NCBI GenBank assembly: GCA_007135935.1
Contig: SLIA01000182.1
Coordinates: 1 to 38,195, forward strand
Source: Wenzhouxiangella sp.
GTDB lineage: Bacteria > Pseudomonadota > Gammaproteobacteria > Xanthomonadales > Wenzhouxiangellaceae
DNA: 38,195 nt
Direction of reading: 5' to 3'
Positions within the stretch are counted from its first letter, which is position 1; the number at the start of each line of letters is the position of its first letter. The notes under the pieces were generated by a model. The model was not told where the DNA came from. It was given only the letters and a program-made list of their open reading frames with translations, and made no database searches. Shown here one piece after another: positions 1,210-9,643 of the stretch. A program made the translations under genes and the position numbers.

Positions 1210-2190
1210 ATGTCGCACACCGAATATCGACTGCCTGCCGAATGGGAGCACCAGAGCGCCACGCTGCTGGCATGGCCCCATGAAAAGACCGACTGGATCG
1301 AGCGCCTGGCCGAAATCCGCCGCGAGTATGTGGGGCTGATCGACGCCATCCTGCCGCACCAGAAGGTCGTGATGCTGACCAGCCCTGGCGATGCCAGCGC
1401 TCGAAGCGCGTTGGCCGACAGGCCGGGGTTGCACCTGATCGATGCACCGTTCAACGATACCTGGTGCCGCGATTACGGCCCCATCACGCTGCTCGGAAAT
1501 GGCTCCCGGCTTGCGCTCGATTTCCACTTCAATGGCTGGGGCGGCAAGTATCCGGCGAGGATGGACAACCGGGTCAACACGCTGCTGGCCCGCCACCCGC
1601 TGTTCGACCGCCTGAGTTTTCGACAATACCTTTTTGAGCTCGAAGGCGGCGCCATCGAGGCCGACGGCCGTGGCACCCTCCTGGTCAACTGGCACTGCCT
1701 GCACGCGCGCCATCCCCACCTGACTCGCGGCGAGATCGAGCACGAACTGCACAACCTGCTCAATATCGATCACGTGGTCGGCATCGACCTGGAGCCGATG
1801 TGCGGCGACGACACCGACGGCCACATCGACACACTGGCACGCTTCATTTCACCCGACATCATCGTTTTCCAGCACCAGGGAGACAGCTCGCGCACCGACC
1901 GCTTGCGCGGCCAGCTGGAGTCCCTGCGCGGTGGCGACGGGCAGCCTTTCGAGCTGTTCGTGCTACCCCACGCCGACGACATCGACCCCACGCTGCCGGC
2001 AAGCTATGCCAACTTCATGTTCGTCAACGGCGCGTGTCTCGTGCCGGCCTACGGCAGCGACAGCGACGAGGTGGCGCGCGGCGTCATGGCCGACCTGCTG
2101 CCCGAGCGCGATGTCAGATCCGTTTCGGCCAATGTCATGATCAGCCAGTTCGGCGGTCCGCACTGTGCCTCCATGCATATCCCCGGCTGA
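1210..2190 (+). CDS. aguA: Agmatine deiminase
   Basis: A 326-residue member of the agmatine deiminase / bacterial peptidylarginine-deiminase family. It hydrolyses agmatine to N-carbamoylputrescine and ammonia, the first step of the arginine-decarboxylase route to putrescine. Visible: WCRDYGP at residues 85-91, FNGW at 107-110, ELEGGAIE at 143-150, the catalytic-acid/His region GDDTDGHIDTLARF (199-212), SYANF at 265-269, and the nucleophilic cysteine (Cys319) in FGGPHCASMHIPG at the C-terminus. It is a little shorter than the roughly 365-residue enzymes of Pseudomonas or Enterococcus, but the core motifs are present. The amidase for its product lies 7 nt downstream, which supports the substrate assignment. 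The ribosome binding site is weak (GAAG). Confidence 0.93.
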   Translation: MSHTEYRLPAEWEHQSATLLAWPHEKTDWIERLAEIRREYVGLIDAILPHQKVVMLTSPGDASARSALADRPGLHLIDAPFNDTWCRDYGPITLLGNGSRLALDFHFNGWGGKYPARMDNRVNTLLARHPLFDRLSFRQYLFELEGGAIEADGRGTLLVNWHCLHARHPHLTRGEIEHELHNLLNIDHVVGIDLEPMCGDDTDGHIDTLARFISPDIIVFQHQGDSSRTDRLRGQLESLRGGDGQPFELFVLPHADDIDPTLPASYANFMFVNGACLVPAYGSDSDEVARGVMADLLPERDVRSVSANVMISQFGGPHCASMHIPG

Positions 2191-2197
2191 GATTCCC

Positions 2198-3082
2198 ATG
2201 ACCCGAATGATCAGGCTGGCTCTGGTTCAGCACGCCATGGGGCCGGATGCCGACGCCAACCGTCGCGCATCCGCCGAGGGTATTGCACAGGCTGCCCGGG
2301 CCGGTGCCGACCTGGTACTGTTGCCGGAACTTCATGCCGGAGAGTACTTCTGCAAGTATCAGGATCCGGCCCTGTTCGAACTGGCCGAGCCGCTCGACGG
2401 CCCGACCGCCGAAATGCTGGCGGTGGCCGCCGAAGCGAACGAAGTGGTCGTGGTCGGCTCGATCTTCGAGCATCGCGCACCCGGCCTGGCGCACAACACC
2501 GCGCTGGTGTTCGAGCGCGACGGCAGCCGCGCCGGCATCTATCGCAAAATGCATATCCCGGATGATCCCGGATACAACGAGAAATTCTATTTCACCCCCG
2601 GTGATCTGGGTTTCGAGCCAATCGACACCTCCGTCGGCCGACTGGGTGTGCTGGTGTGCTGGGACCAGTGGTACCCGGAAGCCGCCCGCCTGATGGCACT
2701 GGCTGGCGCCGAGATCCTGCTCTACCCCACCGCCATCGGTCTCGACCCCAGCGACGACGAGGACGAACAGCTACGCCAGCTCGACGCCTGGCGCACCATT
2801 CAGCGCGGCCATGCCGTGGCCAATGGCCTGCCGGTCGCCGGCTGTAACCGGGTCGGTTTCGAACCCGACCGCTCCGGACGCGAGCTCGATGCCGAATTCT
2901 GGGGCCACAGCCTGATCGTCGGCCCGCAGGGCGAGATCATCGACGAAGCCGGCAGCGAAGCCGAGGTGCTGATCGCCGACATCGACCTGGAGCGCAGCGA
3001 GCAGGTCAGAAGAATCTGGCCGTTTCTGCGGGATCGGCGGATTGACGCTTACGGGGATCTCCTCAAACGGTGGCGCTCGTGA
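2198..3082 (+). CDS. aguB: N-carbamoylputrescine amidase
   Basis: A 294-residue nitrilase-superfamily amidase. It converts N-carbamoylputrescine to putrescine, CO2 and ammonia, completing the AguA/AguB pathway. The Glu-Lys-Cys triad is visible as Glu44 (LLPELHAGEYF), Lys117 (YRKMHIPDDPGYNEKFYF) and Cys154 (VLVCWDQWYPEAARL). The PDDPGYNEKFYFTPGD segment is typical of AguB rather than of other nitrilases. The start is placed at the ATG at 2198, 7 nt after the aguA stop; an upstream in-frame ATG at 2165 lies inside aguA and would add residues unlike the family N-terminus. Length agrees with the roughly 290-residue family norm. Confidence 0.94.
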   Translation: MTRMIRLALVQHAMGPDADANRRASAEGIAQAARAGADLVLLPELHAGEYFCKYQDPALFELAEPLDGPTAEMLAVAAEANEVVVVGSIFEHRAPGLAHNTALVFERDGSRAGIYRKMHIPDDPGYNEKFYFTPGDLGFEPIDTSVGRLGVLVCWDQWYPEAARLMALAGAEILLYPTAIGLDPSDDEDEQLRQLDAWRTIQRGHAVANGLPVAGCNRVGFEPDRSGRELDAEFWGHSLIVGPQGEIIDEAGSEAEVLIADIDLERSEQVRRIWPFLRDRRIDAYGDLLKRWRS

Positions 3083-3599: not shown

Positions 3600-4187
3600 T
3601 TAAACTCCCCGGGAACCAAGCGACTCGATTCGTTCCAGCCAGCGCTGCCGCCCTTCCGGCCGCTTGGCATTGGCCAGGCCGACAAAACAGTGCTTCACCG
3701 GCTTGATCCCGCAAAATTTAAGAATGTTGCGCTTCAAATTGCGATAGCCATGGGCACCGAAATACCAGCGGTAGAACAGCCCGGGCATGCCCATGGTGAT
3801 GATCACGCGTGCCGACTTGCCCTTGAGCAATCCGCCTCCCGGACCTTCGCGAGCCTGCTCGTCGAAAGCGAATCCGGGTCGCAGGACCTGCTCCAGGAAT
3901 GCCTTGACCGCGGCCGGCATGGTGCCCATCCATAACGGAAAAATCAGCACCAGGTGGTCGGCCCGGCGAATCGCCTCCTGGGCGGCAACCACGTCCGGCG
4001 CGGCATTGTCGGCCTGCCAGTCCGCTTCGCTGCTCAGCAGGGGAATGTCCATCTGCGCGATGGCCAGTGCTTCGACCGCCAGGCCGGCGCCCTCGGCACC
4101 CTTGCGGTAGGCGACCGCCAGCCCGTGGCAGAAATGCGAAACCTCCCGGTCGGGATGTCCCTGGATGATAAGTATGCGTCTGCTCAT
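3600..4187 (-). CDS. Flavodoxin-fold NAD(P)H-dependent oxidoreductase
   Basis: A 195-residue protein of the Flavodoxin_2 / NAD(P)H quinone oxidoreductase type (KefF/MdaB-like fold), expected to bind FMN or FAD and transfer two electrons from NAD(P)H to a quinone-like or electrophilic acceptor. Visible: N-terminal strand and phosphate loop RILIIQGHPDREVSHF (residues 4-19), the helix-strand FPLWMGTMPAAVKAFLEQVLRPGFAF characteristic of the family, and the ITMGMPGLFYRWYFGAHG segment. It is the last gene of the five-gene minus-strand operon; its ATG overlaps the stop of the preceding gene by 4 nt (ATGA), implying translational coupling. The substrate is unknown; it may reduce a product of the operon or may only share its transcript. 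Confidence 0.88.
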   Translation of the reverse strand: MSRRILIIQGHPDREVSHFCHGLAVAYRKGAEGAGLAVEALAIAQMDIPLLSSEADWQADNAAPDVVAAQEAIRRADHLVLIFPLWMGTMPAAVKAFLEQVLRPGFAFDEQAREGPGGGLLKGKSARVIITMGMPGLFYRWYFGAHGYRNLKRNILKFCGIKPVKHCFVGLANAKRPEGRQRWLERIESLGSRGV

Positions 4188-4897
4188 GAACTCGATTCCC
4201 TATGCAAACTCCATTCGATCGTGTCAGTCAGCAAGTGGACCACACCTGTCCAGTCCTCACGGTCGCACAAGGCCTGGTTGACTTCCAGTTCCACGGTAAT
4301 CAGGCACTCATCCCCGAACCACTGCCGGTGCTGCTGCCCCATGCCATTACTGGTGCCGCGGTAGGGATAATTCATGCGCACCCGCAAGTCCGGAGAGACC
4401 GACCGGATTCGATCCGCCAGCAACCGGCACCAGGCACGTTCGCCCGCTCTCGCCGGATCGTAGAGCAGCGCCACATCGACCTCGCGTTCCCGGCCATGCA
4501 AAACGGGTGCGAAGCTGTGACAGGCCACGTGCACCACCCGCCCGGGGAGTCCATGCAGCAGTTGTCCGTAGCGCGCCCAGTGCGGCCGCCAGTATTCGTC
4601 ATCCAGCATTTGCCGTTCGCCCGCCGGCAGAACGCGCGTGAACTTCGAGAAGTGTCGCGGGTGATCCGCCGAACGATTGAGATCCACCAATAGACGGGTG
4701 TATCGGCCGAACAACAACGGCGCGCGCAGCTTGCGAGCCAGTGCCCTGGCCACATCCAGCGATCCCCGATCAAAACCGAGATGGCTATCGAGCAACGATT
4801 CATGTTCCCTGAACAGATATCGCCACCGCTCGGGCACCGCATTGCCGCCATGTTCGCAAGTGATCAGGGGCGATACAGCTTGTTGTCCTGCAGACAT
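4184..4897 (-). CDS. N-formylglutamate amidohydrolase family protein
   Basis: A 237-residue protein of the HutG-like N-formylglutamate amidohydrolase family, zinc-dependent enzymes cleaving an N-acyl group from glutamate-like substrates. Visible: LITCEHGGN at residues 11-19, VDLNRS at 71-76, a VACHSFAP motif at 124-131, and a C-terminal segment containing ITVELEVNQALC. No histidine-utilisation genes are nearby, so the usual role in histidine degradation is unlikely. It overlaps the upstream ligase gene by 34 nt and the downstream oxidoreductase by 4 nt. In this operon it may hydrolyse an amide made by the neighbouring ligases or deprotect a glutamyl intermediate; that is inference from context. 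Confidence 0.9.
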   Translation of the reverse strand: MSAGQQAVSPLITCEHGGNAVPERWRYLFREHESLLDSHLGFDRGSLDVARALARKLRAPLLFGRYTRLLVDLNRSADHPRHFSKFTRVLPAGERQMLDDEYWRPHWARYGQLLHGLPGRVVHVACHSFAPVLHGREREVDVALLYDPARAGERAWCRLLADRIRSVSPDLRVRMNYPYRGTSNGMGQQHRQWFGDECLITVELEVNQALCDREDWTGVVHLLTDTIEWSLHRESSS

Positions 4898-6111
4898 TCA
4901 GCCAACTCCCGATAGCCATCACGGATGGCCGACATTTCCGGTGCCGGACCCAACTGATCAACCAATGCCTCGGCCAGGGTGCCCCGCTCGACCATGCCCT
5001 CGAGGGTTCGGGCAAAAGGACTGCCTTCCATCAGTCCGTCGGTCAGCAGCTGCCGCCAGCAGGCGTTGCCCGTCAGCGGCTTGCTCAACCCCATGAGTTC
5101 GAGATAATCACCTTCGTCGATAATGCCCCGACCGCCACGCTCGGCCAGCTGGAACAGAATGGCCGACAACTTGCCATGATCCAGAGCCTGCTGCTTTTCG
5201 AATTGCCGCTCGTCGGAGTGGTATAGACGACGTACCAGTCGCGCCAAGGCATCGGCCACGGCCAGGTCGGCCGCCGGGCACTCCTGCAGGTCGACAAGTC
5301 GAACTTCGATGGTCTGGCGCTCGAAGCGTGCGATGGCGCCGCGCGAATTGAGCCAGTCATCGGCCAGGATGCCCGCAGGGTCATGGGGCGCGATGGCACG
5401 GTACATCGGCGCAAGAATCCGGGCTTTGTAATCCTCGATACCGGTGACCGCATCGGGCACACCCAGGCCGGCGATCTGGGGAATGCGGGCCTGGTTGTTG
5501 CGGTAGTGGAACAGGCGGCGGTCGCACCAGCCGGTCAGCCTCCCCTGCTCGAATGGCGAGGAAGCCGCCAGGGCCGGAATCAGTGGCAATGCAATGCGAA
5601 TGGCCGCATGCAGGCGCCGAAATTCTGCGTCGGTTGCGAAGGGCAGGTTGATGTGCATGGATTGCAGGTTGGACCAGCCATGCCCCCGGCACCCGAAGAT
5701 TCGGTCATAGGCCGCATAGATCTCGTTCTGCCCATGTGGCCAGAGCACGGTCTCGGTAGCTGGATCCAAGAACGGATGCATGGCGGTGGACAGCAGCATG
5801 GCGCCATGGGCGGCCAGCCTGTGATTGATCCGCGTGACCGAGTCGGCAAACTTTTCATCCAGCCTGTCAAGCGTGGAGGCCGGGCCATTGGTCTTGAGCT
5901 CGACGACGTGGGCAACCAGCTCATTGGACCAGGCGATGGAGCCGTCCGCAATCTCATTGACGATCGCACCCGACTCATCGATCAGCAAATGCTCGGCCAG
6001 CGGCTTCACAGACAGTGTCTGCCGATCGACGATCATGTATTCCAGCTCGATGCCGTAGCCCTCGAATGCATGAAGGTGTGGCTGCGGGGTCACCGGATCC
6101 AGGGTCGGCAT
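4864..6111 (-). CDS. Glutamate-cysteine ligase family 2 (GCS2/YbdK-like) protein
   Basis: A 415-residue member of the carboxylate-amine ligase family GCS2, related to glutamine synthetase and to E. coli YbdK; it is expected to form an amide on the gamma-carboxyl of glutamate or a similar acid using ATP. Visible: the N-terminal metal/ATP strand FEGYGIELEYMIVD (residues 16-29), SNELVAHVVELKT (62-74), the HINLPF strand, and RNNQARIPQ and EVRLVDLQECP farther on. A GGGGAG sequence lies 10 nt before the ATG, within the end of the ATP-grasp gene (6 nt between genes). True glutathione synthesis by this protein is doubtful: the family often shows weak or different substrate use, and the adjacent ligase is not GshB. 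Confidence 0.9.
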   Translation of the reverse strand: MPTLDPVTPQPHLHAFEGYGIELEYMIVDRQTLSVKPLAEHLLIDESGAIVNEIADGSIAWSNELVAHVVELKTNGPASTLDRLDEKFADSVTRINHRLAAHGAMLLSTAMHPFLDPATETVLWPHGQNEIYAAYDRIFGCRGHGWSNLQSMHINLPFATDAEFRRLHAAIRIALPLIPALAASSPFEQGRLTGWCDRRLFHYRNNQARIPQIAGLGVPDAVTGIEDYKARILAPMYRAIAPHDPAGILADDWLNSRGAIARFERQTIEVRLVDLQECPAADLAVADALARLVRRLYHSDERQFEKQQALDHGKLSAILFQLAERGGRGIIDEGDYLELMGLSKPLTGNACWRQLLTDGLMEGSPFARTLEGMVERGTLAEALVDQLGPAPEMSAIRDGYRELAECLQDNKLYRP

Positions 6112-6117
6112 GTTGGT

Positions 6118-7584
6118 TCAGCTCCCCAACTTGCGAGCGGTCACGCGTTCGAGAAACACAGCCATGATCTGCTCATAAAGCGCTTTGCCGAGCACGGCAT
6201 CCTCGCAGCCGGCATCGATGGAGGGATTGTCATTGACCTCGATCACCATCACCCGGCCGTCGACTTCCTTGAGATCGACGCCATAGAGCCCGTTCCCGAT
6301 CAGCCCGGCCGCCTTGAGCGCGATCCTGACGACCTTTGGCGGTGCTTCATCAACGGTCAGCGTATCGGCCATGCCTTCCAGAGTCCGCCGCCCCTGGCGA
6401 TGAATGATCTGCCAGTGCCCCCGGGCCATGTGGTAGCGGCACACGTAAAGGACACGTCCGTCGATGATCCCTACCCGCCAGTCAAACGGAGTCGGCAGAT
6501 ATTCCTGTGCCACCACCATGTCAGATCTGGACAGCAGTTCGCCAACCGAGCGCGCCAGTGATGCGCTGTCGTCGACGCGTTGCACGCCCATGGAGAATGC
6601 GCTGTCGGGTTGCTTGAGTACCACCGGCACGCCAAGCCGCTTTTCGATCTCGCCAATGTTGTCGCGATGCACCAGCAGGGTTCTGGGAACCGGCACGCCA
6701 TGTCGTTGCAGCAGTTCGGCAAGATAGACCTTGTTGGTGCATCTGAGGATGGATTCGGGGTCGTCGATGGCCACCAGGCCTTCGGCCACGGCCTGTCGGG
6801 CGAACCGGTAGGTGTGATGGTTCACCGCCGTGGTCTCGCGGATGAACAGGGCGTCGAACTCGGCCAGGCGACCGATGTCCTCCGGCCCAATGAATTCGAC
6901 ACCGAAACCGCTGGCTTCACCCGCCCGCCTGAACCGGGCCAGGGCCCGCGCATCCGATGGCGGACTGACCTCTTCGGGATTGACCAGTACGGCCAGGTCG
7001 AATCGATTCTGGTTGCCCCGACGCGCCGCGCGTCTCGGACCTTGCCCGGAAAAGTACCGATGGGCGGCTTCGGTCACGAATTCCAAGTGGCTGGACGGGA
7101 CATCGCTGAAGGCAACGGGTGCCACCCGCCGCAGTACCCAGCCGTCCCGCCCGCGCTGGAAGCGGGCCTGCAGCAGGGGAGCCGGAAACAGGTTGAACAG
7201 CGCATGTGCCAGCCGGTCGTAGCGGCGCGCGAGATTGCGACCGAAATAAATGCTCAGCACGAACTGGTCCGACTGCAACGGCTTGAGGCTGTGATCGATC
7301 AGCCGCCCCAGTTCCTGCGGAGTCAGGCGAACGAGGCTCGCTGCCCGGAAATCCAGCAGTGTGGACACCGACGGCAATGGCTTGTGTCCGCGCGCGGCGG
7401 CGAGCAGCGAAACATAGTAACCATTGGACTGGTAGCCATAGCTGCGACACAGGTTGAACACGCGTGTGGCACGACGTTCCAGCCAGGCCGGGTCGGTCAG
7501 ATACTCCCGGGCGCTGACCCGCTCGACCCCGTCCAGCCGCAGGGGCCAATCGTCCGGTCGCGACACCACGATCAACTGGCGCAC
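6118..7584 (-). CDS. RimK-like ATP-grasp ligase with N-terminal RLAN-type domain
   Basis: A 488-residue two-part protein. Residues 1 to about 270 resemble the RimK-like ATP-grasp N-terminal (RLAN) region (RVFNLCRSYGYQSNGYYVSL at 41-60; LSIYFGRN at 110-117). Residues about 280-480 form an ATP-grasp ligase: Lys284 in CTNKVYLAELL, Lys323 in VVLKQPDSAFSMGVQ, VAQEYLPTPFDWRVGII (358-374), and the metal-binding EVNDNPSID at 449-457. Such enzymes couple ATP hydrolysis to peptide or amide bond formation, often adding glutamate. The start is a GTG at 7582-7584 that overlaps the end of the peptidase gene by 13 nt, so translation is probably coupled. The substrate is unknown. It is not ribosomal S6 modification protein proper, which lacks this N-terminal region. 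Confidence 0.9.
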   Translation of the reverse strand: MRQLIVVSRPDDWPLRLDGVERVSAREYLTDPAWLERRATRVFNLCRSYGYQSNGYYVSLLAAARGHKPLPSVSTLLDFRAASLVRLTPQELGRLIDHSLKPLQSDQFVLSIYFGRNLARRYDRLAHALFNLFPAPLLQARFQRGRDGWVLRRVAPVAFSDVPSSHLEFVTEAAHRYFSGQGPRRAARRGNQNRFDLAVLVNPEEVSPPSDARALARFRRAGEASGFGVEFIGPEDIGRLAEFDALFIRETTAVNHHTYRFARQAVAEGLVAIDDPESILRCTNKVYLAELLQRHGVPVPRTLLVHRDNIGEIEKRLGVPVVLKQPDSAFSMGVQRVDDSASLARSVGELLSRSDMVVAQEYLPTPFDWRVGIIDGRVLYVCRYHMARGHWQIIHRQGRRTLEGMADTLTVDEAPPKVVRIALKAAGLIGNGLYGVDLKEVDGRVMVIEVNDNPSIDAGCEDAVLGKALYEQIMAVFLERVTARKLGS

Positions 7585-8282
7585 GGGCGAATCACCAGGA
7601 GATTGGCGTCGTAAGTCAGGGCACCGAGCAGGATGGCGGAAATGACGCGATCGATATGAACCGCGTAAATCTGGCCACCTCTGGGATTAGGGTGCATGGG
7701 ATCGGCCACCATGACCATGCGGCTGTTCCGGTCATAACCGCTCAGCACCACGAAGTGGCCGACCGGCTCGCCGCGAATATCGTCATCCCGGTCTTCCGGG
7801 CCCCACTCCCGCATGCTGCGGTAGAGATATGTGGCGCTCAGCCCCGTCAGCACCGGCAAGCCGCGGGCCAGCAACCGGCGCAGCAGTCCGCGGTTGAGGT
7901 CGTCAAAGCGCACCCGGCCACCGGCAGACAGGAAAGCCAGGTAGCCGGCCGTTGCGATTGACAGCTTGACGCGGCGCTTGGAGCTTTCCTGGGCTTCGAG
8001 TTTGGCAGCCAGATCCGTGCCCGGGGTATCGAACCAGGTCGGGTCGAATACTTCCAGGTTCCAACTGTGGATGGTCGCCCGGTACCCCCGGGCCAGTGCA
8101 TGATTGGCCAGGAAGACATCGAGCGTTCCTCCGTCATCGAGTCGCTGAATCTCGTCGACAACAGTGCCCAGTTCAATGGCATCCCCGAAATGACGGTACA
8201 CCGCATGCAGGCAGGTCGGGCCACAGGTCGAGCTGTCCGGCTGTGCCTCGATGGCCAGGGCGATGGGCGGCGGGCCGTTCAT
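7572..8282 (-). CDS. C39-like cysteine peptidase
   Basis: A 236-residue papain-fold peptidase of the C39/C39-like type and the first gene of the five-gene operon. Predicted active site: oxyanion Gln14, nucleophile Cys20 (QPDSSTCGPTC), His176 (GEPVGHFVVLSGYD) and Asp194 (MVMVADPMHPN), in family order and spacing. No signal peptide or membrane segment is seen, so it is probably cytoplasmic and not an ABC-exporter-linked bacteriocin protease. The ATG at 8280-8282 is chosen because GAGGTG lies 9 nt upstream and the family-like sequence begins here; the frame stays open further upstream but without homology-like content. It may process or transfer the peptide made by the adjacent ligases (inference). 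Confidence 0.87.
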   Translation of the reverse strand: MNGPPPIALAIEAQPDSSTCGPTCLHAVYRHFGDAIELGTVVDEIQRLDDGGTLDVFLANHALARGYRATIHSWNLEVFDPTWFDTPGTDLAAKLEAQESSKRRVKLSIATAGYLAFLSAGGRVRFDDLNRGLLRRLLARGLPVLTGLSATYLYRSMREWGPEDRDDDIRGEPVGHFVVLSGYDRNSRMVMVADPMHPNPRGGQIYAVHIDRVISAILLGALTYDANLLVIRPCAS

Positions 8283-8381
8283 GACGTGCAGCACCTCGTG
8301 TGCCACTGTTATACCCGGGATTATGCATCCGGGCGAGCGATTCGGCCAGCACGAAAGATCTCCAGGGGCCCCGGTATTTCG

Positions 8382-8408
8382 TTGCCCCGCCGGCAAATCC
8401 GCTACACT
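8382..8408 (+). promoter_or_regulatory. Possible sigma-70 promoter for the TraB-family gene
   Basis: TTGCCC at 8382-8387 and TACACT at 8403-8408 with a 15-bp spacer, about 30 nt before the ATG at 8438. The -10 match is reasonable but the spacer is short, so this is tentative. The same 155-bp divergent region must also hold the promoter of the C39/ATP-grasp operon on the other strand; TATAAC and CATAAT-like boxes are present there, but no good -35 was found. Confidence 0.35.
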
Positions 8409-8437
8409 GCCCCACTGTTTCAATTCTGACCATCCCG

Positions 8438-9643
8438 ATGACCCCGGAACACAAGGAACTGTTTGCCGGCGAGCCGGTCGAGCACATCCAGCGCGACGGC
8501 GTGGACTACGCCCTGCTCGGCACCGCCCACGTCTCGCGCACCAGTGCCGAGGCCGTCCAGAGACTGCTCGAAAGCGGTCACTACGATGCCGTGGCCATCG
8601 AGCTGTGCGCCTCGCGCTACCAGAGCCTGACCGAGCGCGATGCCTGGCGCGACATGAACCTGTTTTCCATCATCCGGGAGGGCAAGGCCGGCATGATGAT
8701 GGCCTCGCTGGCACTGTCGGCCTACCAGAAGCGGATCGCCGAGCAGTTCGGCATCGAGCCGGGTGCGGAAATGAAGGCCGCGATCGAGGCCGCACGCAAG
8801 GCCGGTCTGCCGGTGCAGCTCATCGATCGCGAGATCGGCATCACCCTGCGGCGCGCCTCCCGGCGCCTGTCGCTGTGGAAACGCTGGCTGATGGTCAACG
8901 GTCTGATCGTGTCGATGTTCACCCGCCAGGAAATTCCCGAGGAAGATATCGAGCGGCTCAAGCAGGGCGACCTGCTGACCGAGACGTTCAGCGAGTTTTC
9001 CGATACCTCGCCCGAACTCTACGAATCACTGATCGCCGAGCGCGACGAGTTCATGGCCGCACGCCTGCGCCAGGAAAATGCCGATCATTCCGGTCGCAAG
9101 GTGCTGGCCGTGCTCGGCGCCGGTCACCTGGCCGGCACGGCAAAGGCGCTGGAAACCGATGCCGATCCGGCCGACACCGTCGAGAGACTCAACGTGATGC
9201 CGCCGCCATCGAAGTTTCTCAAGGCCCTGCCCTGGTTCATCCTGGTCGCCGTCCTGACCGGCTTCGGGATCGGCTTCCATCGCTCGCCGGAACTGGGCTG
9301 GGCGCTGGTGGCGACCTGGGTGGTGATCAATGGCACGCTTTCGGCGCTCGGTGCGCTGATCGCACGTGGTCATCCCCTGACCGTGCTCAGCGCCCTGGTC
9401 GCCGCACCACTGACTTCTCTCAACCCCACCATTGGCGCGGGCATGGTCACCGGCGCGGTCGAAGCCACCCTGCGCAAACCCAAGATGGCCGATTTCGAGG
9501 CCCTGCGCGATGACGTGGTCCGTGTATCGGGCTGGTGGAAGAACCGGGTCTCGCGCGTGCTGCTGGTGTTCTTCCTGTCCAACCTGGGTTCGGCGGCCGG
9601 CACCTGGATTGCCGGGTTCCGCATGGTTCAGCAGTTGATGTAG
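8438..9643 (+). CDS. TraB/PrgY-family membrane protein
   Basis: A 401-residue TraB-domain protein. The N-terminal domain (about residues 1-260) has the family strand YALLGTAHVSRTSAEAV followed by the conserved region with AIELCASRYQSL, and later VLAVLGAGHLAGTAKAL. The C-terminal 140 residues contain about four hydrophobic segments (ALPWFILVAVLTGFGIGF, LGWALVATWVVINGTLSALG, HPLTVLSALVAAPLTSL, RVLLVFFLSNLGSAAGTW) anchoring it in the inner membrane. TraB-domain proteins are thought to be related to metal-dependent peptidases of the Tiki/GumN group; the bacterial role outside enterococcal pheromone shutdown is not established. The ATG at 8438 is used because it begins family-like sequence; the frame is open further upstream but lacks a ribosome binding site. 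Confidence 0.9.
   Translation: MTPEHKELFAGEPVEHIQRDGVDYALLGTAHVSRTSAEAVQRLLESGHYDAVAIELCASRYQSLTERDAWRDMNLFSIIREGKAGMMMASLALSAYQKRIAEQFGIEPGAEMKAAIEAARKAGLPVQLIDREIGITLRRASRRLSLWKRWLMVNGLIVSMFTRQEIPEEDIERLKQGDLLTETFSEFSDTSPELYESLIAERDEFMAARLRQENADHSGRKVLAVLGAGHLAGTAKALETDADPADTVERLNVMPPPSKFLKALPWFILVAVLTGFGIGFHRSPELGWALVATWVVINGTLSALGALIARGHPLTVLSALVAAPLTSLNPTIGAGMVTGAVEATLRKPKMADFEALRDDVVRVSGWWKNRVSRVLLVFFLSNLGSAAGTWIAGFRMVQQLM

Follow-up and report, generated by a model that had tools for sequence, protein, structure and literature searches.

The window analysed here is a contig of 38,195 nucleotides from Wenzhouxiangella sp. (GenBank assembly GCA_007135935.1, contig SLIA01000182.1, positions 1 to 38,195), and the system in question is an operon at positions 3600 to 8282, in which genes for two amide ligases lie together with genes for two enzymes of amide-cleaving or amide-transferring families and for an oxidoreductase. 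The five genes are as follows:

7572..8282, minus strand, C39-like (papain-fold) cysteine peptidase or acyltransferase, 236 aa from an ATG start (PF13529 Peptidase_C39_2, 3.6e-10)
6118..7584, minus strand, RLAN plus RimK-type ATP-grasp amide ligase, 488 aa from a GTG start (PF14401, 3.5e-47, and PF08443, 2.8e-09)
4864..6111, minus strand, GCS2-type carboxylate-amine ligase, 415 aa (PF04107, 1.8e-28)
4184..4897, minus strand, N-formylglutamate-amidohydrolase-like (FGase) amidase, 237 aa (PF05013, 3.9e-19)
3600..4187, minus strand, Flavodoxin_2-fold NAD(P)H oxidoreductase (PF02525 Flavodoxin_2, 3.4e-39)

The open reading frames (ORFs), families and strand were as an initial annotation, made from the sequence alone, had described them (ORF list, Pfam); the single 6-nt gap and the three overlaps (13, 34 and 4 nt) derive from the ORF coordinates, and Pfam together with the conserved order described below confirmed that the operon is genuine and combines two amide ligases with two enzymes that cleave or transfer amides. 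The RLAN ligase passed both Pfam cut-offs, with 160.3 bits for RLAN (cut-off 25) followed by 37.3 bits for RimK (cut-off 21), and RLAN was present once in the source genome, a 3.2-Mb assembly of 325 contigs that is 85% complete. The C39-like gene has alternative starts, a GTG at 8285, one codon upstream of the ATG, and the TTG at 8423 chosen by the ORF finder, from which the Pfam scan of this protein was run.

Named genomes were scanned with the GCS2 alignment, and the best 80 of at least 559 relatives were kept as a sample. When these 80 named loci were searched with profiles of the four families, the C39-like, RLAN, GCS2 and FGase genes were found in order and on one strand in 59 of them, the FGase gene lying about 2-5 kb away in three of these full sets (L117, L121 and L185). 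The query being GCS2, every locus in the sample was bound to contain it, but nothing in the search selected for the other three genes, and with 59 of 80 loci found by GCS2 alone the four-gene arrangement is well beyond chance. According to the taxa named in the record titles, 14 phyla account for 78 of the loci (54 of these loci belong to Bacteroidota and Pseudomonadota), and the 59 full sets fell into 12 phyla plus one unassigned record. Four of the families are thus kept adjoining across distant genomes.

The two ligases were retained together in every genome of this sample. The RLAN gene lay beside GCS2 in 79 of the 80 named loci, the exception being L113, a Lysobacteraceae metagenome-assembled genome (MAG) in which the C39-like, RLAN and FGase genes stand together on a contig other than that of GCS2; both ligases were therefore present in 80/80 named genomes, 79 within the fetched stretch and L113 by whole-genome search, and no genome in the sample was found to carry a single ligase of the pair. 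The remaining two genes behaved differently. The C39-like gene was locally missing in 12 of the 80 loci, two of which (L146 and L161) stop at contig edges, and the other ten genomes were searched whole; nine contained no C39 ortholog (L116, L141, L169, L175, L181, L182, L184, L186 and L191, with only a partial match of 21 bits in L181), and L113 alone carried C39 on another contig. FGase was likewise locally missing in 12 loci, with L112 and L118 stopping at contig edges; in the ten that were followed, seven genomes gave no match (L125, L136, L139, L162, L166, L175 and L181), L168 gave only a partial one of 24 bits and was counted among the 8/10 without FGase, and the gene was found elsewhere in the genome for L122 and L113. 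The ORFs nearest to where C39 or FGase is missing, part of which were scanned, looked varied by eye. Because the C39-like and FGase genes are each missing in some whole genomes, the ligase pair forms the invariant core, and the C39-like and FGase genes are accessory and lost independently, the absences being provisional since many hosts are MAGs (the flavobacterial cases include isolates by record titles). The roles that the initial annotation had given to the two hydrolase-type enzymes, of trimming or transferring the ligase product, are refined by this result, in that each can be lost, and in this sample the ligases were always found together. It had also taken separation of the genes in close relatives as evidence against a common pathway. 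Such separation was found in one relative, L113, and in one more distant genome, G115, where C39-RLAN lie apart from GCS2-FGase; all four genes persist in both split genomes, which argues for a shared function, not against it.

A second view came from a survey of 369 genomes of the class; 81 of them, including the window's own, contain RLAN, and the neighbourhoods of the other 80 were fetched. With the window proteins as queries, 16 of these 80 class loci were of the window's kind and 64 of another. Thirteen of the 16 carried C39, RLAN, GCS2 and FGase in the order of the window. L081 is truncated by the end of its contig, and another contig of its genome opens with a fragment of RLAN together with GCS2 and FGase; L094 has C39-RLAN on one contig and GCS2-FGase, still adjoining, on another; and L064, a 1.3-Mb genome with an estimated completeness of 98%, kept RLAN and GCS2, with no C39 or FGase found genome-wide. 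Both ligases were present in 16/16 of these genomes, a weak test when taken alone because the window's kind was partly defined by its partner genes.

The RLAN domain is said to have been named in a 2009 survey by Iyer and colleagues, and it occurs in the class with two sets of partners. In 60 of the 64 loci of the other kind, all but L067, L075, L105 and L111, a GNAT-DUF3335 protein was matched within the fetched stretch at E 1e-4, some of the matches being weak and some on the opposite strand, whereas the same search gave no match in any of the 16 window-kind class loci. By Pfam of two examples this protein is an acetyltransferase fused to a C39-like domain, and the GNAT-DUF3335 and GCS2/FGase partner sets were never mixed across the 80 class loci. 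In a ligase tree of 74 sequences, 32 of the other kind (one without a GNAT match) and 42 of the GCS2 kind, the two kinds fell on opposite sides of one branch with a Shimodaira-Hasegawa-like approximate likelihood ratio (SH-aLRT) of 100; the tree was built by a quick method with no bootstrap, one of its branches is long, and nine rows, including that of the window, are unusual in composition. The cysteine domains of the C39-like and DUF3335 proteins aligned weakly as profiles, with Cys, His and Asp in register (hhalign probability 81.7). Thus both types place an RLAN-ATP-grasp ligase near a papain-like C39-type enzyme, but in the other type, a separate ligase clade, a GNAT fused to the cysteine domain replaces GCS2 and FGase. 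A papain-like enzyme therefore commonly accompanies RLAN ligases, and what differs is the other partner. Separating the two ligase types by their partner enzymes offers a comparative handle on both.

Four genes, and not the five originally proposed, make up the conserved unit. At E 1e-5 no protein similar to the reductase (3600-4187) turned up in the 160 fetched loci, 80 from the class and 80 named; 96 of these are window-kind loci, and some stretches stop at contig edges. The reductase was accordingly rejected as a pathway member; it is probably co-transcribed here, as its 4-nt overlap with FGase suggests, and lies outside the conserved module as a local addition. A TraB/PrgY/gumN family gene at 8300-9643 (+), divergent from the operon (TIGR00261, 307 bits), was likewise rejected, being kept beside the operon only in the close relative L112 among the same 160 loci.

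No further conserved gene emerged from the flanks. In the 16 class loci plus the window, flank clusters present in at least three loci were the four genes themselves or ORFs overlying them, and clustering of the named-locus flank ORFs recovered mainly Pontibacter synteny among the 41 clusters listed. With 13 Pontibacter loci left out, the widest flank cluster listed reached six of the 67 remaining loci, with no fixed position or strand, and the next reached five; most of the other clusters listed came from four near relatives (L116, L128, L138 and L148). The six-locus family (L136, L156, L158, L172, L173 and L181) consists of long proteins, in frames of about 460-1060 aa that look sensor-like by eye, at distances of 4 bp to 6 kb from the operon, and is probably a common superfamily. 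A Pfam scan was made of same-strand ORFs within 200 bp, 97 from 68 loci (12 Pontibacter loci left out). Among the 81 scanned together, at most three shared a Pfam family (aldehyde dehydrogenase, DUF155), and no transporter family occurred in more than one among the 25 of 107 families listed, ranked by members; ten further ORFs gave AAA domains and a PPC domain in two long ones and nothing in eight, and six very short ones were left out. No carrier, transporter or precursor gene is therefore conserved beside the operon according to the flank clustering and the Pfam scan, in agreement with what had been noted for the window on carriers and transporters. Genes of the DUF155 (RMND1/Sif2-like) family stand beside RLAN loci of both types (L032:8380-9201, L036, L050 and three window-kind flank proteins); they are recurring neighbours, too few to count as conserved.

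The two ligases were compared with curated families, and every NCBIfam match of either one, including the RimK, glutathione synthetase, EgtA and YbdK models, was under its curated cut-off. The RLAN ligase scored 68.3 vs 143.4 bits for rimK_fam, 35.6 vs 331 bits for the S6-glutamate ligase and 34.9 vs 408 bits for the glutathione synthetase PRK12458; the GCS2 ligase scored 64.3 vs 176.4 bits for YbdK (TIGR02050), and all GCS2 models listed were likewise under cut-off. The C39-like protein and FGase had no NCBIfam match at E 0.01, and the link of the latter to HutG, which hydrolyses N-formylglutamate in histidine degradation, consists of its membership of Pfam PF05013. Separate genes for the familiar functions were found elsewhere in the source genome: a glutathione synthetase over cut-off (G000:C194, 379 bits), a RimK-domain protein (G000:C120, 230 bits) and a second, different GCS2 protein (G000:C130:242-1165 (-), a 504-aa frame, 312 bits) that is probably an ordinary glutamate-cysteine ligase. 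On these separate genes and the sub-cut-off scores, glutathione and S6-modification enzymes were rejected as an identity for the operon, as the initial annotation had judged. Glutathione synthetase, the only glutathione route considered, was further searched in 30 host genomes picked from the 80 to span phyla. It exceeded its curated cut-off in one, was near full-length in eight more (175-250 bits), gave a partial or weak match of at most 86 bits in 13 and was not matched in eight. Since 21 of the 30 host genomes thus had a partial match or none, glutathione is unlikely as a general substrate.

The residues expected of active enzymes are conserved. Gln, Cys, His and Asp of the C39-like protein were invariant in 69/69 aligned rows, near-copies and Pontibacter rows other than L119 having been left out; the triad first numbered Cys20/His176/Asp194 is Cys21/His177/Asp195 in GTG-based numbering. 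In the RLAN ligase K324, R370, D437, E449 and N451 were invariant in 78/78 rows, the charged GCS2 residues E22, E24, E64, E71, R257 and E269 were among those invariant in 15/15, and the CEH, HxxxH and other motifs of FGase were invariant in 14/14. Catalytic roles are assigned to these residues from what is known of their families.

The AlphaFold model of the C39-like protein (predicted local distance difference test, pLDDT, 93.1) had the PCAT1/ComA leader peptidases as its nearest folds in the PDB (best Z 18.3, 136 of 237 residues, root-mean-square deviation, rmsd, 2.0). Tied with them within Z 1, and over more residues, was phytochelatin synthase with a glutathione acyl-enzyme (2bu3; Z 17.4, 164 residues, rmsd 3.1), and CtaG structures were also among the matches. 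Phytochelatin synthase acts on a gamma-glutamyl tripeptide via a cysteine acyl-enzyme. It (Alr0975) and CtaG share with the window protein the papain fold and a Cys-His-Asp site, but the C39-like protein is only about 12% identical to phytochelatin synthase. For the RLAN ligase (pLDDT 89.7) the ATP-grasp part comprises residues 195-482, and the fold matches, which cover residues 192-486 only and not the RLAN domain (about 1-190), were headed by ArgX in complex with LysW and Glu (Z 28.6, 266 residues, rmsd 2.3), followed by LysX (28.4) and RimK (27.3). The likeness to LysX/ArgX with LysW and to RimK lies in this half and in the invariant ATP/metal-type residues; the window ligase differs in having an extra RLAN domain of about 190 residues, other partners and no conserved adjoining carrier gene. 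By sequence, GCS2 matched in the PDB only a plant glutamate-cysteine ligase, weakly (0.00064), and the FGase family profile matched 2odf (hypothetical protein Atu2144, 2.9e-37) and, weakly, 2q7s, an N-formylglutamate amidohydrolase.

A partial parallel was found in closthioamide biosynthesis, for which an ATP-grasp enzyme, CtaD, and a peptidyl transferase, CtaG, have been proposed in one pathway (PMC6772006). The closthioamide system differs in having carrier proteins and thioamide genes, not seen at the window operon, and the second ligase is another one. On the CtaG parallel, transfer rather than cutting by the C39-like enzyme is a fair possibility. Operons linking ATP-grasp ligases with COOH-NH2 ligases or GNAT proteins have been predicted earlier, Iyer et al. 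(2009) being cited for them in PMC4431377, and in Francisella tularensis deletion of a 490-aa 'rimK' is reported to have caused no attenuation (PMC2675058). Among the titles and abstract openings listed no paper on the present operon was found, the survey of Iyer et al. (2009) lying outside this comparison. Amidoligase operons are therefore already known as predictions; the conserved four-gene set, the two-clade structure and the split into core and accessory genes are documented here.

Taken together, these data favour, with some confidence, a conserved cytosolic pathway, independent of the ribosome and of nonribosomal peptide synthetases, for the synthesis and turnover of a small peptide-like metabolite. 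A soluble small-peptide pathway fits because the ligases were never found singly, the hydrolases are optional and no carrier, transporter or precursor is conserved alongside. In such a pathway the GCS2 ligase would activate a carboxylate at the expense of ATP and condense it with an amine. The precedent of its family points to the gamma-carboxylate of glutamate, so that a gamma-glutamyl-type dipeptide or amide would result; the RLAN ATP-grasp ligase would then activate a carboxylate of this product and add a further amino acid. The papain-like enzyme would form a cysteine-bound acyl intermediate that is hydrolysed or transferred, as phytochelatin synthase does with glutathione, and the FGase-like enzyme would free a terminal acyl or glutamyl group so that building blocks are returned. 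We infer the order of these reactions, the use of glutamate and the nature of the product, a small molecule in free form and not a protein; glutamate is the likely building block by the precedent of GCS2, LysX/ArgX and RimK. We propose more tentatively, and at somewhat under even chances, that the product is an unrecognised peptide metabolite or cofactor, made by RLAN and GCS2 and recycled by the papain-like and FGase enzymes, in at least 14 phyla (the full set in at least 12), with most sampled hosts lacking a recognisable full-length glutathione synthetase. A four-enzyme set in one order in 12 phyla, kept even when the operon is broken, is very likely useful to its hosts and is unnamed by annotation. 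Being small, with two ligases and two hydrolase-type enzymes, the system could be rebuilt in vitro and its product sought directly.

Several points weigh against this pathway. Glutamate as substrate is suggested by family precedent only. A fold match is no proof of activity, and for the C39-like model those ranking highest are with leader peptidases and not with transferases. Both hydrolases are missing from the genomes of L175, L181 and L064, which weakens any mechanism needing the third or fourth step, provisional as such absences are with many MAGs among the hosts. The ligase co-occurrence of 16/16 in the class set is weaker than the 80/80 of the named set, its kind being partly partner-defined. 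An acceptor protein may be encoded away from the operon. The strongest competing explanation is protein tagging, in which the RLAN enzyme, acting like RimK, would attach a GCS2-made peptide to a protein as a tag, to be trimmed or removed by the C39-like and FGase-like enzymes. The ATP-grasp half is nearly as close to RimK as to ArgX and LysX, some of the fold-matched entries contain a protein partner (LysW or RpsF), and a cysteine isopeptidase would suit de-tagging. GCS2 ligases, however, are known to use amino acids in free form, and the flanks of the operon show no conserved gene for an acceptor. In nine named genomes the ligases remain although the cysteine enzyme is absent, so that a de-tagger would be lacking there; we regard tagging as unlikely, at roughly one chance in five.

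Less probable still is a compatible-solute or storage peptide, made in abundance by the ligases as protection against osmotic stress and degraded by the hydrolases. Losable hydrolases would suit a degradative role, and several hosts come from saline or soda-lake samples by their record titles (L112, L114, L116, L128, L138, L167, L176 and L181, whose isolate names we take to denote soda-lake or saline metagenomes), so a link of the operon to salt or alkaline stress is possible. The hosts in the named sample, however, also include Geobacteraceae, Oligoflexus, Noviherbaspirillum and Nitrosomonas, which are not known as halophiles, and no Pfam family occurred in more than three of the 81 flank proteins. 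The resemblance of the C39-like model to the double-glycine peptidases PCAT1 and ComA, at Z of about 18, would suit a cluster for a bacteriocin or other ribosomally synthesised and post-translationally modified peptide, with the C39 protein as leader peptidase and the ATP-grasp enzyme as a graspetide-type cyclase. A bacteriocin-processing C39 peptidase is marked by an ABC exporter, fused or adjoining; the window protein stands alone, with TraB and NhaC families as neighbours by Pfam, and only the 136 residues already mentioned align with the peptidase domain. Together with the scarcity of transporters in the flanks this makes such a cluster very improbable, the flank ORFs considered being at least 60 aa, so that a very short precursor could escape. 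Finally, the overlap of family names (RimK, GCS2) might point to ordinary glutathione or S6-modification enzymes under another name, but the separate GshB, RimK-domain and GCS2 genes, the scores under all matched curated cut-offs and the single host of 30 with a glutathione synthetase over cut-off leave this the least credible explanation of all, and the small-metabolite pathway is preferred to each of these alternatives.

No RNA elements or tRNAs were found in the window, and the counts of promoters and terminators were not above those of shuffled sequence. None of the five proteins matched a family in the PADLOC anti-phage models (E 0.01), and the GCS2 protein had no match among phages. Agmatine deiminase-like and N-carbamoylputrescine amidase-like genes adjoin each other at 1210-3082 (+); both were under the NCBIfam equivalog cut-offs, and they look like a pair for making putrescine from agmatine. 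Locus L194 of Legionella adelaidensis (NZ_LR134436.1, 9073 bp) carries RLAN-GCS2-FGase with fur, bamE and dapF; a chromosomal contig seems the better description of this record, which is titled 'plasmid 27'.

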